Positions 18,019 through 27,556 are shown, counted from the stretch's first letter. The stretch: 64,000 nucleotides of DNA from Candidatus Saccharimonadota bacterium (GCA_017437945.1 JAFRWP010000012.1:1-64000), one strand, 5' to 3'. Translations and numbers: made by a program. The notes: generated from the letters alone by a model not told the origin.

Positions 18019-18420
18019 ATGTCTATTCAAACAACTGATCCTGTAGCTGACTTACTTACCCGCATTCGCAACGCGATTGCAATCGGCAAGAACGAAGTAC
18101 GCGTCCCTACTAGCAAGCTCAAATTCGCTGTTGCTGACAAGCTACAGAAGACGAACTATCTCGAAAAGGTAGAGGTTGAAGATGCAAAACCACGCGGCAT
18201 TCTCCATATCGTTATCAATAACGAAGGTGAAAATGCTCGCATCAATGAAATTACTAAGGTTTCAACTCCAGGTCGCCGCATTTATGCAGGCGTCAATGAG
18301 ATTCCAAAGGTAAAATCTGGCCGTGGTACCGTCCTCGTTTCGACGAGCAAAGGCATCATGACCGGACAAGAAGCCCTCAAGAACAAACTTGGCGGCGAAG
18401 TTCTTGTCAAGGTTTGGTAA
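18019..18420 (+). CDS. rpsH: 30S ribosomal protein S8 (uS8)
   Basis: 30S platform protein and, in E. coli, repressor of the spc operon. DPVADLLTRIRNA and the C-terminal VLVSTSKGIMTGQEAL are typical. 133 residues. In most bacteria rplF follows directly. Here transcription ends 5 bases downstream in a strong hairpin, and 8.6 kb of other genes intervene. Confidence 0.97.
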   Translation: MSIQTTDPVADLLTRIRNAIAIGKNEVRVPTSKLKFAVADKLQKTNYLEKVEVEDAKPRGILHIVINNEGENARINEITKVSTPGRRIYAGVNEIPKVKSGRGTVLVSTSKGIMTGQEALKNKLGGEVLVKVW

Positions 18421-18467: not shown

Positions 18468-19313
18468 TTAATAATCCGCTAATCTAATATTTGTATCCCT
18501 GATTAGCTTCATGGCTTTAGTATGGTTCTCGCACCCCGGCATGACAATTCTTCTGACTTCGCCGTAATCGAATACGTAATTCATCGGAATATCAGCATAC
18601 ATAATTGTAATCGTTCCATCACTCTTATTATTCAGACGAATCTTTTCGTCGAGATACATAAATCCGAACTGTTCAGTCTTCGCATCATAAATTAGTGCTC
18701 TCATATTTGTGACGGCAAAATACCAAACTCGAACATTACGGACAATCATTCGCACGATGAATATGATTATACATAGAGCCAAAGCGCCATACAGCATCCG
18801 ATTTAGGCTATGCAAAGTCGTCTCATTATAACCCAAATTGCCGCCAGCGTTAGCGAGGAGTATTAGATTAGTGATTAAGATGATTAAAAGTGCCAAAACT
18901 GTAAAAGACGTCGCATGATAAAACTCATAATCATCGGTCGGATTAGGCGCTTCTTCGTTTTTTGTCGGAGAATAAAACAAATACCTAAAATCACCAATCG
19001 AAAACCGCCGCATTAAGTAGCCAATCTTAGTTGGCGAAATAGCCAATAAACAAATAACAATGCAGATTCCCATGGCCGTCATGCATGGAAACATCCATTC
19101 AATATGATCAATGCTAGGTTTATTATTTAGAGAATTAGAGATAATCAAATACAGTAACTCGATAGCGTAAATGCAGAACATCAAGAAAACCGTGCCGTTT
19201 TTGAGCGGATTCTCATTCCGATATTTCAGGTCAGTCTTAAAAACTCCTAAGATATGCTCGTCTTTATCGAGGCATCTTTCGAATATTTTATGTGGACTGT
19301 TATCCTTAAGCAT
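18468..19313 (-). CDS. Multi-pass membrane protein with PH-like C-terminal domain
   Basis: 281 residues starting at MLKDNSPHK (ATG 19311-19313); a longer upstream reading would run through the promoter and the thyX terminator. Two hydrophobic segments flank residues about 40-95, and two more lie near 140-200. The C-terminal part, beginning WYFAVTNMRALIYD, looks like the bacterial PH-type domain found in YdbS-like proteins, where an inherited W-x-x-T-x-x-R pattern is common. This is a guess from pattern. It is leaderless by position and lies convergent to rpsH. No function is assigned. Confidence 0.6.
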   Translation of the reverse strand: MLKDNSPHKIFERCLDKDEHILGVFKTDLKYRNENPLKNGTVFLMFCIYAIELLYLIISNSLNNKPSIDHIEWMFPCMTAMGICIVICLLAISPTKIGYLMRRFSIGDFRYLFYSPTKNEEAPNPTDDYEFYHATSFTVLALLIILITNLILLANAGGNLGYNETTLHSLNRMLYGALALCIIIFIVRMIVRNVRVWYFAVTNMRALIYDAKTEQFGFMYLDEKIRLNNKSDGTITIMYADIPMNYVFDYGEVRRIVMPGCENHTKAMKLIRDTNIRLADY

Positions 19314-19320
19314 TATATAT

Positions 19321-19326
19321 ATTATA
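19321..19326 (-). promoter_or_regulatory. Leaderless -10 of the 18468-19313 gene
   Basis: On the minus strand TATAAT is followed by seven bases and then the ATG, leaving no room for an SD. Confidence 0.6.
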
Positions 19327-19332
19327 TAACAC

Positions 19333-19360
19333 AAAAAATCCCCCGTCCGCAGACGGAGGA
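19333..19360 (-). terminator. Terminator of the ThyX-like gene
   Basis: On the minus strand TCCGTCT-GCGG-ACGGGGGA is a stem followed by TTTTTTG, just after the stop codon. Confidence 0.8.
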
Positions 19361-19366
19361 TCATCG

Positions 19367-20545
19367 TTAGACGAGACGGTCTTCGTAACCGCCACAGCCC
19401 CAATAGCAGGGGTGCTGACAAGTGAAGAGGCCGGTAGCGCCTTTCGGCACTTTGTAGTACTTATCGAGTTCGAGCATTACTTCAGGATAAAGCACAACGT
19501 CGAGGCTATTATGGTATTCTTTCCAGAGATTCTGATAAGCTCTCTGGGTCTCCAGCAGCACAGAGCCACACTCGGCCCGTTCCAGCAGTGACCACATTAC
19601 ACTCTTGTAGTTACCGGTGGCGGACAGTGTCATCAGCGAAGCGCCAGGAATCATGCCCAAGTCGGAAAGTTTATCCATATCCCTGACATACTCTGCGTAC
19701 AACTCGGGATTCTTCCGTAGGATAGGCGCGGCATAGTAATCTCTCCGTTTCTCATCGAAATATACCCAGTAGCGCATGTCTTTGCGATGGCGCACGATGT
19801 GTGCGGCGCAGTCGAAGGAGATATCTTTAAAGTTATGCGTGAAGCTCCGCCCATAGCTCGCAGCCGGAATCGTATTAATGAATAAATCAAGGCTACCGCC
19901 CTTATTATCCTTAATTACGTCAGCCAGCGGGCACATTTCTTTCAGCTGTAGCGCCAAGTCGGATACTTGCGCACGCGCAAGGCTCATAAACAGAGAATCG
20001 CCGCTATCGGTGGACGCAAAATCATTCAGCCAATTGATCAGGTAACAAAGATTCCGCGTGTCGACATAGTAGTCGAAAGAGTAACTCGGCGAAAACAAGT
20101 TGACAAAGCCGCGCGAATTCTGGTTGGCATCAGTCTCCAAAGTGCGGTCCGGAATGTCTCCATATTCTGCCCTGATCAAATCGGAGAAAATCACACGCCA
20201 TTTGTCGCAGTAGTCATAGTCTATGCCAGAGTAACCGGGCGCGCCGGGTTCACGAAAGCGCAAAGAGCGCGCCATCGCATTGTACGGGATGTCGACCGTG
20301 GTCATCAGAATCAGAATGAACTTGCTGGCATCTTCAACGAAGAAATGGAATCTCGTGAACTCCAACGGGCTGTGATGACCATCGGCATTGAGCCGTGCAG
20401 CCTGATCCAACAGTGCCTGCTTCTGCTCCTCGGATACGGCAGCGCTACGTAGTCCTGTCGATTTTTGATAGCAAGTCTTAGCTTCTTGGCTGTACTTGAC
20501 CAAAATCTCCTCGGAACTGGGTACTTCAATTGGAATGATTTTCAT
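19367..20545 (-). CDS. Long, divergent ThyX-like (flavin-dependent thymidylate synthase family) protein
   Basis: 392 residues; ordinary ThyX has about 220. The N-terminal half has GHHSPLEFTRFHFFVE (compare GH-x-S-x-x-E-H-x-x-F-x-F of ThyX) followed by MARSLRF. The C-terminal half has HIVRHRK at about 248-254, IPGASLMTLSATGNYKS, and LETQRAYQNLW, matching the ThyX segments RHR, the IPPE-ARxxLP region and AQxEIR. The serines of the signature RHRxxSxxxxSxRY are absent. It may therefore be a two-domain ThyX that methylates dUMP, or a relative acting on another pyrimidine. The start at 20545 follows the SD AGAGGTG. A tmk-like gene lies in the other island. Its leader carries a hairpin. Confidence 0.65.
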   Translation of the reverse strand: MKIIPIEVPSSEEILVKYSQEAKTCYQKSTGLRSAAVSEEQKQALLDQAARLNADGHHSPLEFTRFHFFVEDASKFILILMTTVDIPYNAMARSLRFREPGAPGYSGIDYDYCDKWRVIFSDLIRAEYGDIPDRTLETDANQNSRGFVNLFSPSYSFDYYVDTRNLCYLINWLNDFASTDSGDSLFMSLARAQVSDLALQLKEMCPLADVIKDNKGGSLDLFINTIPAASYGRSFTHNFKDISFDCAAHIVRHRKDMRYWVYFDEKRRDYYAAPILRKNPELYAEYVRDMDKLSDLGMIPGASLMTLSATGNYKSVMWSLLERAECGSVLLETQRAYQNLWKEYHNSLDVVLYPEVMLELDKYYKVPKGATGLFTCQHPCYWGCGGYEDRLV

Positions 20546-20579
20546 AGTAACACCTCTTCCATTAGTCAAAGTAAAGTAC

Positions 20580-20636
20580 GCGAGCAAACAGAAGTCTCGC
20601 TGCCAATATTATGCAGGTAATTAAAGATAAGGGCAA
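20580..20636 (-). promoter_or_regulatory. Promoter and leader hairpin of the ThyX-like gene
   Basis: On the minus strand TTGCCC (20636-20631) and CATAAT (20613-20608) are 17 bases apart. The early leader has GCGAG and CTCGC (20600-20580) as a short stem. Confidence 0.6.
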
Positions 20637-20654: not shown

Positions 20655-20683
20655 TGGACAAAATAGACAAAATATGCTATAAT
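20655..20683 (+). promoter_or_regulatory. Promoter of the 20752 nucleotidyltransferase
   Basis: TGGACA (20655-20660) and TATAAT (20678-20683) are spaced by 17 bases, with TG ahead of the -10. The leader is about 60 bases and carries a T run before the SD AGGAGGT. Confidence 0.75.
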
Positions 20684-20751: not shown

Positions 20752-21948
20752 ATGTATCTACGAAGACCCTTTATTGAGGTAATGCATGAGGCGCCAGAAG
20801 AATACTATCTCGAAATACCAACCTGGGAACTCAAGAAAACGCTGGATCATCAGAAGCTGGCCAATAGTATCTGCGAACACGTAGCTAATCGTAATAATCC
20901 GCAGGTCTGCTATGAGGCCATCGCCAAAATCATGCACCACTATCCCCGAATCTCTCTCTATATCCCATTCTGGATCCTGAAAGACGCTCCGGAACACTTC
21001 CGTGACGACTATCTTACGGCATGGCAGAAATGCTGGGCTTATCAAGACGTGGCGGAAGCGTTCAATATCGGTGACATCCTCGAAAAGAATTGTCGCATTG
21101 CCGAACCGAGGCGCGTGGTCAAGGCCATGCACCTCATCCCCTGGCTGGTCGAATATGGCTACATCTCTGCGCAGGACATTTTGCAGATAATGCGTTGCCT
21201 GCGCGATGACCGGGTCGTAACAGATAGTATCTTCGATGCTGTGACTTACATGCGCCAAAACGAAACAATTGACAACCAAATGTTCAGCGAATTCGATAAG
21301 TACAAGCACGCGCCACATTTTCCGTATGCGTCCCTGAGCCAGCTCTACGATACCGAATCGCGCAAGCAGTGGCTGAACGAAAAAGCGCATAACTACTTCG
21401 TACAGCCCGGCTTCAAACTTCAGAATCCGGCCGGCCCGTTCAGTGCAAATATTACCGAGCACGACCTGGACGGAAAAATTGCGCTCGAGGAGGGTAAATA
21501 CTACCTGATTGGCGGCTCTCTCCTTAAGGGGTATGATCGGGATCGATCCGATCTCGATATCTATGTCTACGATGAACTCAGTGGTACTATCAACGGCTTT
21601 GAACCCTATGCTGGCCGCCCGAGCTTCATTGCCCATCTATTGTTCAATAAAATGTGGGTAGGCCGAGACGAGAAATCAACTACCTTAGCGCAGAACAAGG
21701 CTGTTTTCGACTGTCTGCGTAAGCTAGATGAGTTCAGTCGCCAAGAATGCCTGATTCGCATGGAAATGGACTTGCTCCAGTTCCGACTGATGCACAAGGG
21801 CATCATCTGCGCATATCCTGAACTATTTAAGGATGACCCCGAGTTGTCGCCGATCGATATCAAAAGTGCATTTTATAAAGATACCTATCGCGATATTGCC
21901 ATCCAGATCTACGCCAAGTACATCCATCTTCCTGAAGAACTGAAATAA
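20752..21948 (+). CDS. Predicted nucleotidyltransferase with helical N-terminal domain
   Basis: 398 residues, soluble. Residues 1-230 are helical and unrecognised. At 254-270 the sequence GGSLLKGYDRDRSDLDI is a polymerase-beta-type nucleotidyltransferase motif: Gly-Gly-Ser followed by D267 and D269 as the metal-binding DxD. A third acid may be in EMDLLQF near residue 342. Such enzymes add nucleotides to proteins, antibiotics or RNA; the target is unknown. A strong SD (AGGAGGT) precedes the ATG. It points toward the four-gene minus-strand operon and shares its terminator. Codon use is the accessory type. Confidence 0.7.
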   Translation: MYLRRPFIEVMHEAPEEYYLEIPTWELKKTLDHQKLANSICEHVANRNNPQVCYEAIAKIMHHYPRISLYIPFWILKDAPEHFRDDYLTAWQKCWAYQDVAEAFNIGDILEKNCRIAEPRRVVKAMHLIPWLVEYGYISAQDILQIMRCLRDDRVVTDSIFDAVTYMRQNETIDNQMFSEFDKYKHAPHFPYASLSQLYDTESRKQWLNEKAHNYFVQPGFKLQNPAGPFSANITEHDLDGKIALEEGKYYLIGGSLLKGYDRDRSDLDIYVYDELSGTINGFEPYAGRPSFIAHLLFNKMWVGRDEKSTTLAQNKAVFDCLRKLDEFSRQECLIRMEMDLLQFRLMHKGIICAYPELFKDDPELSPIDIKSAFYKDTYRDIAIQIYAKYIHLPEELK

Positions 21949-21950
21949 AA

Positions 21951-21979
21951 AAGAGGACCCCCGAAAGGGTCCCTTTTTG
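21951..21979. terminator. Shared convergent terminator
   Basis: AGGGACCC and its complement pair around a short GA-rich loop with A/T runs on both sides. It serves the plus-strand nucleotidyltransferase and the minus-strand operon. Confidence 0.88.
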
Positions 21980-21996: not shown

Positions 21997-23250
21997 TTAC
22001 AGCGCGTTGTGACCGCCGATATTCTTGACGCCACCGACGGCGCCGCCGACGAGCTTCTCCCATTGAATCTGCCGACCCAGCTGCCACAGGGCGCTCAGGT
22101 AGGAAATCTCATTTTCAGGGCTTTCATCGCTGAACTTGATAGCAGCCAGTACGAAGCGAACCAGGTTCTGTTCCATACGGACATAATCAGCAGTAATGCC
22201 GATACCCAGCTTCTTCAGCATCTGCTCGCGATTAGCCACGCCAATCATAGCAGGCAGAGAGCGATCGTTCAGTGACTTTACGATTTCCATCGCATCATAT
22301 GCCATAGCGGCCGCAATCGGAGCGACAGTACCGCGGAAGGTATGATTGATAGCATTCTTGAGTGCATCGGAAGCATCACGCATAACGTCAGTCGGAGGCA
22401 TGCTTGCAGCGGTGAGACTCGTCCGGGCGCCACTCAGGGCACCAGCCAAAGAGCTCATCATAAATGCAGGATTGCCCGCGGCAGAAACGACACCATCATT
22501 CCAGGCATCCAAATCCTTATAGAAGGACCAGATGGCCGGGCAGAGTTCTTTGTCGATACGCTGCATAAACATTTCGCGCCGACTCTTGGTAACGTAATCT
22601 CCTTCCAAACCAGGAATAGCAGAGAAAATTTCACCGTAATCGCGACGGGTAATCTGCTTCCTCAGGGCAAAATACCGATCGTTGACCATCTCATCACTTT
22701 GATTTGCGAATTCATCCATGGCATTGGCGATCTTTTCGGTGACCGAATACAGACCGAAACGATTCGCAACGAATACGCGCAGGGCGGAATCCCAGATAGA
22801 TTCCTCAACCTTCAGAACTCCGCCGATCTTCAGAGAGTTCAGCAGAGCTTCATCAGACTGCGCAGCCGGCAGGATACTGAAATCCGCGGAGTACATCGGA
22901 ACAGCCACGGGTGCAGCTGCAACCGGCATTTCGGCGGCGGTCTTGGTAGCCTTCACTTCAGACAGCAGTTTGCGTGCCTTCACCAGCTTCAGGCCGGCAG
23001 TGACCAGATCATCTTCTTCCAGTTCGGCCAGGTCATCGACAGATTCGACGCCGAGATCGGCCAGGTACTTCAGGGTGTCATCATCGCCTCCGTACTTCTC
23101 GACCATCTCGGTCAGAGCATCCATGGCAGGCGCCTCAACAGTGACGGCGGGAGTGGATTCGACGACAGCTTCTTCGGCAGCAGGTACTTCAACGGTGGTT
23201 GCTTTGGTCTTAGTTTCCTTGGACAGATCAACTTTCTTAGCGGTAGCCAT
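21997..23250 (-). CDS. Helical protein with N-terminal SAM/HhH-like segment, last gene of the operon
   Basis: 417 residues, ATG at 23250 after GGAGGTATAAAATT, an SD that lies in the end of the preceding gene. Residues 1-50 are Ala/Val/Glu/Thr-rich and probably unstructured. Residues about 58-95 (LADLGVESVDDLAELEEDDL and following) look like a SAM-type or helix-hairpin domain that binds proteins or nucleic acid. The rest is helical, with an Ala/Ser-rich stretch near 275-325, and was not recognised. It is the fourth gene of a tight operon with the PurA-like, vWA and kinase-like proteins, so a joint function is likely. No signal peptide. Confidence 0.6.
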   Translation of the reverse strand: MATAKKVDLSKETKTKATTVEVPAAEEAVVESTPAVTVEAPAMDALTEMVEKYGGDDDTLKYLADLGVESVDDLAELEEDDLVTAGLKLVKARKLLSEVKATKTAAEMPVAAAPVAVPMYSADFSILPAAQSDEALLNSLKIGGVLKVEESIWDSALRVFVANRFGLYSVTEKIANAMDEFANQSDEMVNDRYFALRKQITRRDYGEIFSAIPGLEGDYVTKSRREMFMQRIDKELCPAIWSFYKDLDAWNDGVVSAAGNPAFMMSSLAGALSGARTSLTAASMPPTDVMRDASDALKNAINHTFRGTVAPIAAAMAYDAMEIVKSLNDRSLPAMIGVANREQMLKKLGIGITADYVRMEQNLVRFVLAAIKFSDESPENEISYLSALWQLGRQIQWEKLVGGAVGGVKNIGGHNAL

Positions 23251-23254
23251 AATT

Positions 23255-24574
23255 TTATACCTCCATATATTCTTTATCTTCTTTGCACGGACCAAATGAA
23301 ATCATCCGTACAGGTAAACCAGTATATGTTTCAAAAACCTGACGGCAAAGTTTAGTCTGCTCATCGCGGTTTGTAGGAATAGAGAAACTTTTCAGCGGAG
23401 TCTTCACAGACTTCAAAAGATCGATGTTTCTCAGTTTATAGGGAAGAAAAACTTTATCGCCAAGGACGTAGTTAGTGCAACAGTTCCAAGTGCCGTTCTT
23501 AACAATCTGGTCAAACCAGGTAACACAAATACCATCGAACTCGGTAAACAACTTACAAGCATGAAGCGCGTAGTTAATTAACACGAAATCCAACGGTCCG
23601 ACACGAACTTGGCCTTGCCAACGATTATCGTCCTTACAACTCCCGGGAAGCAGTTGCTCACGCAACTTTGGATCCGCGGTAGGCAATGGCCCTGCGCCAT
23701 GACGCACAGAATACGCACGATGAACGCCGTAATGGATTATCTCGCCTTCATATCCATGAGTGCGTAGGGATAAATCCGTAAAATGCGGCAATGTGCGTAG
23801 TGAGCTAACGTGCGGTTTGAGTCCCGTCTCGGAATCCGTTAAGACGCCGTGGGATCTCTCCACGACCATGTTTCCAGGCAAAGACACAACCTTCTGCATG
23901 TCCTCCAATCTCACTTTTGCTCCTGCTTCAAGAATCAATCTTAGGATATCCTCTAAGGCAAAATCGTTTTCCAGCGCAGCTTTGCAACTCGCTAAAATCT
24001 CACGGTCCTCCGGAAGCACATCGTCATCCGAAAGAGAACCGTATTTATCCGAAACGAATTCTCTTTGCTTTTTGAGAACAGCTGCGACTTTTGCCCCATC
24101 GGTCAACATATCTGCATAAATCGTCATGTCCGGGTTGGTTTTTGACATCTGAAATGCCTTACCTACACCCGTACCAACCGTCCCGTGAGGATGATCCTTT
24201 AGGGCGATTTCATACAAATGCGACCACACTTCATGGTAGGGGGTCGCGCAAATGCAGAATGGTGAAACCGACAGCAGGTCGAAAGCATGCGCCACGCCAA
24301 CCTTCAGTAATGCGGCCGCCTCTCGGAGTAAACCAATCGGCGATACTACAAAGCGACTCGTGAGATAGCTCGGAGTGCCTTGAAAGGTAGCGCAGCCCCA
24401 CTGCGAGAAATTGAACTTTCTACCATCAGACAGCACTACACCATGTGAACCCTGCGCACCACCTTCTTTCAGGATAACGCGGGCATTCACTTTGTTGGCA
24501 ATCGACTCAACGACGCCGCCTTTACCGCCATCACCAGGACCTAAGTCGGTTATGACGTAAGCTTTCTCAGCCAT
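23255..24574 (-). CDS. Divergent adenylosuccinate synthetase-like (PurA family) protein
   Basis: 439 residues. PurA joins IMP and aspartate using GTP. The P-loop reads GPGDGGKGG, so the catalytic Asp (D15) and Lys (K18) are kept but the usual Glu after Asp is Gly. GGAQGSHGVV keeps the catalytic-acid His (H44) of GGxNAGHTVV. GTVGTGVGKAF and RHGAGPLPTAD match the IMP-loop and the R-x-G-x-G-P-x-P-T segment. Phage PurZ proteins change the Asp to Ser, so this is not a plain PurZ. Overall divergence and the operon with vWA and kinase-like genes suggest a specialised reaction, not housekeeping purine synthesis. The ATG follows the SD GAGGTGA that overlaps the vWA stop. Confidence 0.75.
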   Translation of the reverse strand: MAEKAYVITDLGPGDGGKGGVVESIANKVNARVILKEGGAQGSHGVVLSDGRKFNFSQWGCATFQGTPSYLTSRFVVSPIGLLREAAALLKVGVAHAFDLLSVSPFCICATPYHEVWSHLYEIALKDHPHGTVGTGVGKAFQMSKTNPDMTIYADMLTDGAKVAAVLKKQREFVSDKYGSLSDDDVLPEDREILASCKAALENDFALEDILRLILEAGAKVRLEDMQKVVSLPGNMVVERSHGVLTDSETGLKPHVSSLRTLPHFTDLSLRTHGYEGEIIHYGVHRAYSVRHGAGPLPTADPKLREQLLPGSCKDDNRWQGQVRVGPLDFVLINYALHACKLFTEFDGICVTWFDQIVKNGTWNCCTNYVLGDKVFLPYKLRNIDLLKSVKTPLKSFSIPTNRDEQTKLCRQVFETYTGLPVRMISFGPCKEDKEYMEV

Positions 24575-24583
24575 AAAATCACC

Positions 24584-25744
24584 TCAAATCCATGTAGATT
24601 TCTTGGGTTTATCGGGTTCCTTTGGTGCTTTCAGCACGGGAACATCGGGCAGAGCACTTGCATCTACCGGCTGCTTATCCGTCTTTTTGGCAAAAATGTC
24701 GCCTTTCTTCGGAATCACAATCTTGGCGGCCTGCTCCAGCTTGCGCTGCGCAGACAATTCAACCTGGCTCAAACCCGGCATAGCACGATCAATATTAGCG
24801 TTGGATACCTGATGATCTTTCAGGAATTTTCTCAGGTCCATCGGCTGCAGCGTTCCTTCAGTCAGACCAATGACAGCGGCTTCAATTGCCGGCAGGCAGC
24901 GCGTATCGTGAATATTGATACGATGCCGAACGTCATAATAAGTACTAAAGTAGGAAGTTGCGCCTCCGAGGCCAATCACGAAAGCGTGGGCCCGTTTATG
25001 AAGCGCCTTGAACATATCGTCGATGTCCGGAAGATTCGTACGCGTAATATCGGAGTGACCGTTATCCGCGAGGTTTTTCCAGACATCTTCGCCATAGACG
25101 CGTTCAATCAGGTCGGGATCCAATCTATACCTATGCATCGGAGCATCAGTAATCATGAAATGGTAACCCTTCAGGCCGATTCGATTAGTAAAAGTGTCGG
25201 TCAGATAGGCCGCGCCGAAGATCGCATACTGCGGGTCCTCATGGATATCGCCACCATTACTTTCCGGTACCAGCTTCGTCACATAATCAACGATTTTCTC
25301 AGCCGTCATCTCGAACTGCGGACGGTTAACAATGAATCTATCCACCATGTCGCCGAAGATTCCCAGCGCGAGCTGTAAATCATAGCCAGGCAGAACTTCA
25401 GAGATAACACCGTACGTTTCGGGCAGGACTTCGATCATCGTCTGAACATTGTCGCCCATCGAACCGGTCGTGTCGCATGTGCTCTCCATGTCCATCGGGC
25501 AGCCGATAGTCAGTTCAAACCGACCATCCGGCATTTCCTCGAACCGGGGCAGCGAACGCCGAATCACCATCACCGCCGGGTCAACCGCCGGTTCCAGTTT
25601 TCCAGAACGTTTTGAACGCTGCTCAGCCTCATGCGTTACACTGCACGTAGCACGGCGGGTGCCGTCTTCGCGGGTTTCGAAACTGATACCTCTTGAAGCA
25701 GTAGCAGTACTGAAGCTATAGTAAGTAAATTCGTCGCGACCCAT
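24584..25744 (-). CDS. Cytoplasmic von Willebrand A domain protein
   Basis: 386 residues without a signal peptide. The MIDAS signature DTTGSMGDN gives D91, T93 and S95, and ITDAPMH contributes the later acid, so divalent metal binding is expected. A beta-rich segment precedes the vWA domain, and a Lys/Pro-rich tail follows it (KKGDIFAKKTDKQP onward). The start at 25744 follows AAAAGGAGGG. Its stop overlaps the SD of the PurA-like gene (TGAGGTGA). Soluble vWA proteins in small operons often act as assembly or signalling scaffolds, for example TerY-type proteins in Ter modules; here that is analogy only. Confidence 0.75.
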   Translation of the reverse strand: MGRDEFTYYSFSTATASRGISFETREDGTRRATCSVTHEAEQRSKRSGKLEPAVDPAVMVIRRSLPRFEEMPDGRFELTIGCPMDMESTCDTTGSMGDNVQTMIEVLPETYGVISEVLPGYDLQLALGIFGDMVDRFIVNRPQFEMTAEKIVDYVTKLVPESNGGDIHEDPQYAIFGAAYLTDTFTNRIGLKGYHFMITDAPMHRYRLDPDLIERVYGEDVWKNLADNGHSDITRTNLPDIDDMFKALHKRAHAFVIGLGGATSYFSTYYDVRHRINIHDTRCLPAIEAAVIGLTEGTLQPMDLRKFLKDHQVSNANIDRAMPGLSQVELSAQRKLEQAAKIVIPKKGDIFAKKTDKQPVDASALPDVPVLKAPKEPDKPKKSTWI

Positions 25745-25758
25745 ATAAATCCCTCCTT

Positions 25759-26601
25759 TTATAATTTGGGAGCATCGGTGATAGTGTGCCAGGTACCGGT
25801 ATCACGTTCCATATAAGTAAACGGATAGTACGCATGACCCCACCATTCATCCAGTTTGTCGTAGAATTCGTGATGCGCTTCCACACCAGTCATCTTGCGA
25901 CTGTTGTCCTTGGAACAAGTCCAATCCAGCAGTTTCCGGAAGTCTTCCTCATGTTCTGTGCCGTTAAATTCGACCCAGTCATTGATGGCAGCAGTTGCAT
26001 TACGCAGGCTATCATTCCAACGCATCAGCTCGCCGGAGCGAGGCATGCCGAGATAAACCAATCGATGCATCCGTGGTTCCAGGATGACTCCATCCACGTC
26101 GAAATTGTACAGACCGCCACACATCTCCAGGAAAGACTGTAACTTGTACAGTCTACCAAGAATCCAGGCAGCGGTTTTTGCATCCACCTTGTACTTTTCT
26201 ATCAGCTTAGCCATCGGCACAAAGTCCTCAACCTTACCGTCTACGATAGATAGCAGATTAATCTGACGATGTCCTTGGTCTTCACCAGTAAGAAAAGTGG
26301 CGGCCAGCTTTGGGATCAGCCAGTCGTAGTGGACGCGGGCTTTGGAGTTTTTCTTCTCTTTGGCGTACTCAGCCTCGATGTTTTCCGAACAGGCATCCAG
26401 ATGAATCAGCATTTCAGCTTCCATGTTGATTTCGCCGTTGAAATACGCATCAGTCGGGACCCGCATCAGATAACTCTGCTTGCCGTCCAGGCTTTTCGCG
26501 AAATACAGGCGGAACCAATCGGTTACAGAGAGCAGACCAGATTCCGGATCAAGTTCGCACATTTCGACGCCATTAGTGTCCAGGAGAATCAAAACAATCA
26601 C
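25759..26601 (-). CDS. Kinase-like remnant (putative pseudokinase), first gene of the operon
   Basis: About 280 residues. The segment at 125-186 (LIEKYKVDAKTAAWILGRLY, then LEMCGGLYNFDVDGVILEP and HRLVYLGM) follows the pattern of the C-lobe of bacterial serine/threonine kinase-like proteins, where the matching piece reads AAWM-RLL---H--GVVHGA--P-HVL. Here the His/Asp/Asn catalytic residues are replaced, so it would be inactive. The call is tentative. GTG 26601 overlaps the SD (AAAGAGGTGA), so TTG at 26592 is the likelier start. It has a full-consensus promoter and an attenuator-like leader, and heads the operon with vWA, PurA-like and helical genes. Confidence 0.5.
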   Translation of the reverse strand: MIVLILLDTNGVEMCELDPESGLLSVTDWFRLYFAKSLDGKQSYLMRVPTDAYFNGEINMEAEMLIHLDACSENIEAEYAKEKKNSKARVHYDWLIPKLAATFLTGEDQGHRQINLLSIVDGKVEDFVPMAKLIEKYKVDAKTAAWILGRLYKLQSFLEMCGGLYNFDVDGVILEPRMHRLVYLGMPRSGELMRWNDSLRNATAAINDWVEFNGTEHEEDFRKLLDWTCSKDNSRKMTGVEAHHEFYDKLDEWWGHAYYPFTYMERDTGTWHTITDAPKL

Positions 26602-26633
26602 CTCTTTTCATATATATGTAATCTGTTAAAACA

Positions 26634-26663
26634 GCGAAAAAGCCATAGCGTGAAACGCTAGGC
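26634..26663 (-). promoter_or_regulatory. Attenuator-like hairpin in the operon leader
   Basis: On the minus strand GCCTAGCG-TTTCA-CGCTATGGC is followed by TTTTT. It sits between the promoter and the first gene and has the form of a terminator, so read-through may be controlled. Confidence 0.6.
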
Positions 26664-26677
26664 AATATTCATCAATC

Positions 26678-26706
26678 ATTATAGCACAAAATGTCAAAAT
26701 TGTCAA
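26678..26706 (-). promoter_or_regulatory. Full-consensus promoter of the four-gene operon
   Basis: On the minus strand TTGACA (26706-26701), 17 bases, and TATAAT (26683-26678), with TG one base upstream of the -10. It is identical in design to the promoter at 11079-11107. Confidence 0.88.
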
Positions 26707-27019: not shown

Positions 27020-27556
27020 ATGAGTCGTATCGGAAAACTACCTGTAGACATTCCTGCGGGCGTGACAATTACGGTCGGCGACAAAGAAATTACCGTCGCT
27101 GGTCCAAAAGGCACGCTTAAGGTCCCTGTCCAGGAAAATACCACGACGAAAGTCGAGGGTAACCAAATTATTGTGACCCGCAAGGATGACGAGCCAAAGT
27201 CCAAAGCTTGGCACGGTCTCCAGCGCGCACTACTTAATAACGCCGTTATTGGCGTCACCAAAGGCTTTGAGAAGAAACTCGAAATCAATGGTGTCGGCTA
27301 TCGCTTAAGCGGTGGTCCAAAAGAAATCGAGATGGCACTTGGTTTTTCCCATCCAGTTAAGTACAAAGCTCCAGAAGGCATTGAGCTTAAGACTGACAAG
27401 ATGGTAATCACCGTGTCGGGTATCGATAAGCAATTGGTTGGCGAAGTCGCCGCCGAAATCCGCGCACTCAAGAAGCCAGAACCATACAAGGGTAAAGGCA
27501 TCAAGTACGTAGATGAATATATCATTCGTAAAGCCGGTAAGGCAGGGAAGAAATAA
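27020..27556 (+). CDS. rplF: 50S ribosomal protein L6 (uL6)
   Basis: 50S protein near the factor-binding site. MSRIGKLPVDIPAG is the normal start, chosen over a longer in-frame reading that would cover the promoter; AGAGGAA is the SD. The C-terminal PEPYKGKGIKYVDE segment is diagnostic. 178 residues. It resumes the spc gene order interrupted after rpsH. Confidence 0.97.
   Translation: MSRIGKLPVDIPAGVTITVGDKEITVAGPKGTLKVPVQENTTTKVEGNQIIVTRKDDEPKSKAWHGLQRALLNNAVIGVTKGFEKKLEINGVGYRLSGGPKEIEMALGFSHPVKYKAPEGIELKTDKMVITVSGIDKQLVGEVAAEIRALKKPEPYKGKGIKYVDEYIIRKAGKAGKK

Follow-up and report, generated by a model that had tools for sequence, protein, structure and literature searches.

Bacteria, plasmids and phages carry adjacent genes for a kinase-fold protein (usually catalytically dead), a vWA protein of the MIDAS type and a PurA-like enzyme. 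This well-supported module is almost certainly a conserved unit, and a wider one than the four-gene operon named in a preliminary description of the window, i.e., of the whole 64,000-nucleotide stretch of Candidatus Saccharimonadota bacterium DNA that was analysed (GCA_017437945.1 JAFRWP010000012.1:1-64000). Judged by the literature searched, the module is undescribed. With regard to its function, we tentatively propose, with somewhat less than even confidence, that it is an NAD+/ADP-ribose-linked module that makes an unusual amine-conjugated purine nucleotide.

In the window, the four genes of the operon lie on the minus strand and a fifth gene converges on them from the plus strand. The features are as follows.

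26678..26706, minus strand: sigma-70 promoter TTGACA-17-TATAAT with a TG extended -10 (12/12 consensus)
26646..26660, minus strand: start-proximal leader hairpin, then a T-rich stretch (z -3.8 in the window)
25759..26601, minus strand: degenerate kinase-fold protein (pseudokinase) of about 277-280 aa, assigned by homology and conservation
24584..25744, minus strand: vWA-type protein with the MIDAS motif DTTGSM and further conserved acidic residues
23255..24574, minus strand: PurA-like nucleotide ligase of a divergent subfamily with RHGxG and WQG signatures (PF00709, 5e-32)
21997..23250, minus strand: helical protein with an N-terminal SAM/HhH-like domain, found in the same 12/151 genomes as the module
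21954..21973, both strands: bidirectional intrinsic terminator that separates the operon from the convergent gene
20752..21948, plus strand: nucleotidyltransferase-like fifth gene, convergent with the operon
20655..20683, plus strand: the nucleotidyltransferase-like gene's own promoter TGGACA-17-TATAAT (11/12 consensus, with TG)

All four open reading frames (ORFs) of the preliminary description were present on the minus strand. Its single full-consensus promoter was recovered as a 12/12 sigma-70 match with an extended -10 at 26706-26678, and its attenuator-like leader as a hairpin with a T-rich tail at 26660-26646, an arrangement that may be attenuator-like or mRNA-stabilising. The genes had been described as coupled stop to start; they are tightly packed, but gaps of 14, 9 and 4 nt separate them, and the coupling is not literal. 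The four genes form a conserved block, but the set was not complete because the convergent gene at 20752-21948 had been missed. Within the kinase-like ORF (25759-26601), a TTG at 26592 is the likelier start. For the SAM-type gene, an ATG at 23250 stands behind GGAGG, and the listed TTG at 23295 overlaps PurA.

The module is conserved among the Saccharibacteria, and Candidatus Saccharibacteria are also the nearest relatives of the window genome in public records. Profile and BLAST searches turned up 14 further loci in which the kinase-like, vWA and PurA-like genes occur together. The SAM-type and convergent nucleotidyltransferase-like genes were present in all of these except on a contig that ends within PurA, and in that genome the remaining pieces of the module were found on another contig. 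The vWA gene occurs in 11 of 151 genomes of the family, each of which has the PurA-like gene either adjacent or on a split contig. Strong matches to the nucleotidyltransferase-like and SAM families were found in exactly these 11 genomes and in G025, where divergent kinase, vWA and PurA-like genes are present too; it is the same 12 of the 151 genomes that hold all five families. The idea of a candidate new system had been made to depend on the co-occurrence of the four families elsewhere, and this was found everywhere it was sought. In one locus (L023), the nucleotidyltransferase-like gene shares the strand of the operon and lies immediately upstream of it, and this relocation argues for a functional rather than a positional linkage. 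Most relatives have similar promoters upstream of the kinase-like gene and hairpins at the same leader position, although the hairpin sequences differ. This recurring layout with a changed hairpin sequence is consistent with a regulated leader, though it does not prove one. The surroundings of the module in Saccharibacteria are housekeeping genes.

The core triad was also found in other Patescibacteria and well beyond them. In mycobacteriophages of the genus Bixzunavirus, a J-domain/kinase gene is followed by vWA and PurA-like genes, as in the window, with profile comparison putting the kinase-like and vWA proteins at 98% probability. The kinase-vWA-PurA order is likewise kept on actinobacterial and proteobacterial plasmids (Rhodococcus, Tsukamurella, Agrobacterium, Acetobacter and Variovorax), and a vWA-PurA pair occurs on further plasmids and in Vibrio and Rhizobium phages. 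The PurA-like and vWA genes each served as an independent bait in viral contigs. The loci found with PurA contained a vWA gene in 77 of 80 cases and a kinase gene in 58, and those found with vWA contained a PurA-like gene in 75 of 79 and a kinase gene in 43. In no viral pair did the vWA and PurA-like genes lie on opposite strands, and the median distance between them was 16-17 bp. Grouping at 70% identity left 105 distinct groups of viral loci, 104 with vWA and 69 with the kinase. The kinase-fold protein bears a DnaJ-type domain in several relatives; the branch of the window is without the J domain and adds the SAM/HhH helical protein and the nucleotidyltransferase-like protein.

The individual proteins were examined for their conserved residues. 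In the vWA protein, D68, T70, G71, S72, D109 and D179 are conserved across 18 diverse members, which corresponds to the MIDAS pattern of DxSxS/DxTxS plus further acidic residues. The window protein showed no Pfam match and no solved PDB structure by sequence, and its assignment as a vWA protein rests on the D-x-T-G-S MIDAS motif. Its phage relatives form phrog_2971, which is labelled as function unknown. The kinase-like gene is conserved in the 14 Saccharibacteria loci, and the window protein is homologous to the mycobacteriophage J-domain kinase, which itself matches PF00069. The HRD Asp, the Asn and the DFG Asp are lost in the window protein and are lost as a set in 69/69 viral members, and all three are kept in 3/13 other reference members (cellular and jumbo-phage). 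Since some members keep all three catalytic residues, an ancestral active kinase is the probable source of the dead forms. In the SAM-type protein, a SAM/NusA-AR2/HhH domain lies at about residues 57-124 (counted on the long ORF), and the helical body beyond this N-terminal domain found no match in PDB or viral models. These results bear out the preliminary reading of the three proteins as a vWA protein (by its conserved motif, though no Pfam model matches), a dead kinase (by PF00069 via the mycobacteriophage homologue and by the lost catalytic residues) and a SAM-like protein (by the N-terminal domain). The fifth protein combines a helical-repeat N-terminus with a conserved GGSxxKGYxxxxSDxD motif, which agrees with the Pol-beta-type pattern (hG[GS]...DxD). 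Fold searches with it returned no confident match, only common helical-repeat arrangements, and it is on the motif that we call the protein nucleotidyltransferase-like.

The neighbourhood of the module in relatives points to NAD+ and ADP-ribose. Genes of NAD metabolism flank the module in two Saccharibacteria genera (G043 and G139). In G043 these encode NAPRTase, an isochorismatase-family (nicotinamidase-type) protein, NUDIX-APH, ADP-ribosylglycohydrolase and NrtR. In G139, NAPRTase, isochorismatase-family and NUDIX genes are on the contig with the kinase and vWA genes, and ADP-ribosylglycohydrolase and NrtR are on the contig with the remainder of the module. To judge by its sequence, one gene of G025 may encode an NMN adenylyltransferase. 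The triad of the Patescibacterium G400 is surrounded by NrtR, cytidylyltransferase-like, isochorismatase-family, NAD-kinase-like and ADP-ribosylglycohydrolase genes. NrtR is also near the module in G448, Agrobacterium and Rhodovulum, as is a NUDIX gene in G190, Tsukamurella and Rhodococcus. The commonest neighbour families among the 105 phage groups were NadV (nicotinamide phosphoribosyltransferase; 13 groups), NadM/R-type adenylyltransferase (10) and NADAR (6), and several phage NadV genes lie at most 0.7 kb from PurA or overlap it. By a rough estimate that starts from the NadV frequency published for jumbo phages (33%), 2 to 4 NadV groups were expected by chance versus the 13 observed. Most of the 105 groups had no NAD+ gene within the fetched stretch. 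NAD+ genes are common in phages anyway. No NAD+/ADP-ribose genes were found near the operon in the window or near most loci of its genus, and the window genome (G000; 952 kb, 99% complete) gave no NrtR_WHD, NAPRTase-family or ADP_ribosyl_GH match; the NAD link is therefore carried by the relatives. We consider the link, which is moderately supported, to be probable. It could represent a regional association rather than a biochemical role.

The PurA-like enzyme retains the catalytic centre of PurA and differs from it in the loops that contact the substrates. PF00709 matched the window protein over its whole length (5e-32), in keeping with its initial identification, and when the family profile was compared by sequence with solved structures, those of PurA matched best. 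We aligned 135 module enzymes with PurA and PurZ and numbered the residues by mature E. coli PurA. The catalytic Asp13, the P-loop Lys and His41 are retained, with Asp13 and His41 invariant in 135/135 module enzymes. The valine of RVGAGP is replaced by His, giving RHGxG in 135/135; N38 is changed to Q in 131/135 and T301 to Gln in 128/135; the R303 position is missing from 135/135; WQG replaces TTGR in the aspartate-binding loop; and Q224 is H in the Saccharibacteria enzymes. In PurA, R303 touches aspartate and the IMP ribose (IMP O2'), and the base pocket of PurZ is lined by the equivalents of N38, T129, Q224 and V273 (PMC8342488). With its catalytic residues retained and its contact loops altered, the enzyme may still phosphorylate a 6-oxo group and transfer an amine, but on another substrate. 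As the ribose and aspartate pockets differ from those of PurA, we infer that the substrate, the amine donor or both are unlike IMP plus free aspartate. The module enzymes formed a clade that excludes PurA and PurZ (support 0.94), within which the saccharibacterial branch was monophyletic (support 1.0). The adenylosuccinate lyase superfamily (PF00206) had no match in the 11 module genomes searched, the window genome included, and the control for this search gave a match in 14/14 genomes. The usual route to AMP is thus closed in these genomes.

We propose the following mechanism. With GTP as phosphate donor, the PurA-like enzyme would phosphorylate a purine nucleotide at its 6-oxo group and join an amine to it. 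The chances for and against an amine-conjugated purine product seem to us about equal, and a succinylated or aspartylated nucleotide, as first suggested, is possible despite the altered amino-acid-binding loop. Because no adenylosuccinate lyase was found in the module genomes searched, the conjugate would probably be the end product and act as a signal or modifier. The vWA protein and the pseudokinase may together act as a scaffold that depends on Mg2+ and serves to gate the enzyme or to present its target, and the nucleotidyltransferase-like protein may act on or with the product. The NrtR neighbours in relatives suggest that the module may respond to NAD+/ADP-ribose status, serving cells under stress or in conflict, and the context of the relatives suggests that it may help phages together with NAD+ salvage genes. 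The fullest form of this proposal is an NAD+/ADP-ribose-coupled pathway in which a vWA/pseudokinase-gated, PurA-descended ligase makes a hitherto unknown amine-conjugated purine nucleotide that serves as a signal or modifier, the pathway being common to bacteria and their large phages in a contest over NAD+, and we regard that form as rather doubtful.

Several other explanations were weighed against this proposal. If the protein were just an auxiliary adenylosuccinate synthase of the ordinary kind, serving purine salvage beside genes unrelated to it, a PF00709 match over the whole length and the kept catalytic residues would be accounted for. However, the window protein scored 62.6 against a cut-off of 395.55 (TIGR00184) and 77.5 against 402 (NF002223) on the equivalog models, there is no lyase to finish AMP synthesis in 11/11 module genomes searched, the linkage to vWA is near-perfect and the clade is separate, all of which make this explanation highly improbable. 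On the linkage, the clade and the missing lyase, we rejected an ordinary PurA with chance neighbours. The concern raised in the preliminary description, that the protein might be the only, ordinary PurA of the genome, was correct in one half: it is the sole PF00709 protein of the window genome, yet it is not ordinary, having rebuilt loops and no lyase. A PurZ-type enzyme for 2-aminoadenine DNA is what the best PHROG for the window protein would imply, since the label of phrog_1211 names a 2-amino-type adenylosuccinate synthetase. But phrog_1211 matches both the module enzymes and true PurZ, so its label does not discriminate and the phage annotations that copy it are unreliable. Moreover, all three PurZ tested have Ser at position 13 versus Asp in 135/135 module enzymes, and they form a separate clade with support 1.0. 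Asp13 and the tree contradict PurZ and Z-DNA, and we attach next to no probability to this reading.

The rebuilt aspartate-binding loop, with R303 gone and WQG for TTGR, means that the amine need not be free aspartate. A purine nucleotide might be joined to an amine of a protein or nucleic acid that is presented by the vWA protein and a chaperone-like J-domain kinase, both of which belong to folds well known to handle peptides (PMC9503650). PurA active sites, however, are built for small molecules, and we think such macromolecule modification quite unlikely. A conflict module would serve as anti-phage or stress defence in cells and as counter-defence with NAD+ replenishment (of the kind described for the NARP pathways) in phages, and its nucleotide would be a signal or a decoy. 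The patchy distribution (11-12/151 genomes), the occurrence on plasmids and phages, the NrtR and ADP-ribosylglycohydrolase neighbours that resemble described ADP-ribose conflict systems and the NadV/NadM/NADAR neighbours in phages are in its favour, but PADLOC models do not match any of the five proteins, the module has no nuclease or membrane effector, and its surroundings in Saccharibacteria are of the housekeeping kind. It is on balance an unlikely explanation, if one worth keeping in view. A known anti-phage system was rejected on the negative PADLOC result, in which the nucleotidyltransferase-like protein had one weak, partial match (E 0.017). Ter modules combine vWA, kinase-fold and nucleotide-metabolite enzymes, and a Ter-like metal or stress response module with a nucleoside-like metabolite would have the same ingredients in outline. 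PRTase and HAD-annotated genes are found near the vWA-PurA pair in a Rhizobium phage. The early comparison with Ter thus holds for the vWA, kinase and nucleotide enzyme but not for the Ter genes themselves, as none of the seven window ORFs scanned had a TerB, TerC, TerD or TelA Pfam match; we judge a Ter-like module very unlikely. A PurA-like enzyme does not appear in the available descriptions of Ter-dependent/TerY-P type stress modules (cited in PMC7824862).

The module proposed here shares elements with described enzymes and systems but coincides with none of those compared. E. coli PurA is similar to the module enzymes in fold, P-loop, catalytic Asp13 and His41 and overall length. It differs in having RVGxG where they have RHGxG, TTGR for WQG, N38 for Q and R303 present, and the module is without PurB and is linked to a vWA protein and a pseudokinase. 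PurZ of Z-DNA phages (S-2L, phiVC8) is likewise a phage-borne PurA relative with a changed substrate specificity, but it has Ser for Asp13, lacks the loop and belongs to another clade. The ARG-centred ADP-ribose counter-systems, as presented in the accessible portion of PMC9503650, unite an NrtR-type Nudix regulator, an ADP-ribosylglycohydrolase and a vWA chaperone in one neighbourhood. NrtR, ADP-ribosylglycohydrolase and vWA are also together in the Saccharibacterium G043 and the Patescibacterium G400. In contrast, that portion of their description has no PurA-like enzyme or kinase-vWA-PurA core, and the window locus is without NrtR and ADP-ribosylglycohydrolase; ADP-ribosylglycohydrolase with a Nudix/WYL regulator was absent from G000 and present in G043, G400 and G139. 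NARP1 and NARP2 are phage NAD+ reconstitution pathways (PMC12774641), and phage NAD+ salvage genes adjoin part of the phage module loci, but Adps and Namat bear no relation to the enzymes of the module. No description of the kinase-vWA-PurA gene set was found in the literature searched, whose coverage was incomplete, and this agrees with the preliminary statement that no described system has exactly this set.

The vWA-PurA cassette is kept intact in about 100 distinct phage lineages, on plasmids and in very small host-dependent bacteria, mostly with a kinase-fold partner, and phage annotations treat its enzyme as PurA or PurZ. Should the product prove to be a new nucleotide, it would join the few nucleotide signals and modifications on record for phages and their hosts; the mycobacteriophage and M. 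smegmatis laboratory system offers a direct way of testing this. If true, our proposal would explain the presence of a PurA homologue in Saccharibacteria that are without a route from adenylosuccinate to AMP.

Ribosomal-protein operons are the insertion site of the module in the window and in three relatives' loci, L013, L026 and L014. In L013 the module lies between S8 and L6, as it does in the window, and in L014 it adjoins S12/S7. The S8-L6 interval of the window also holds a membrane protein gene and a Thy1/ThyX-like gene (PF02511 match, 4e-10), a distant relative of which occupies the same position in L013.

Window 18019-18420 and 27020-27556: S8 and L6, on either side of the module
Window 18468-19421: membrane protein gene
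Window 19367-20587: Thy1/ThyX-like gene
L026 5371-12882: module flanked by S10 and L3

In less derived Patescibacterial loci, a pyruvate-kinase-barrel-like gene (PF00224 in L085) lies in the vWA-PurA interval; related genes are also present in L083 and L088.

L084 6824-7777; L085 6403-7338; L268 5347-6288: pyruvate-kinase-barrel-like gene

The PurA-like genes of Mycobacterium, Vibrio and Rhizobium phages are annotated via phrog_1211 as 2-aminooxy adenylosuccinate synthetase. Since their products have the catalytic Asp13 and are placed outside the PurZ clade, this label is probably wrong. In mycobacteriophage Rabinovish, what looks like an intein splits the vWA gene, and two-piece hits point to a similar split in several other C1 phages. 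The vWA-PurA pair of Rhizobium phage RHph_TM30 has, at a distance of 3-6 kb on its upstream side, HAD hydrolase-annotated, PRTase_3 and NUDIX genes reminiscent of Ter-type metabolite enzymes.

L019 2418-4238: vWA gene with apparent intein, Rabinovish
L055 942-3269: HAD hydrolase-annotated, PRTase_3 and NUDIX genes, RHph_TM30

Partial second copies of the kinase-like and PurA-like genes suggest that module genes were duplicated and then decayed within Saccharibacteria.

L014 14836-15175: kinase-like gene, partial
Genome G089, contig C9 51101-51964: PurA-like gene, partial
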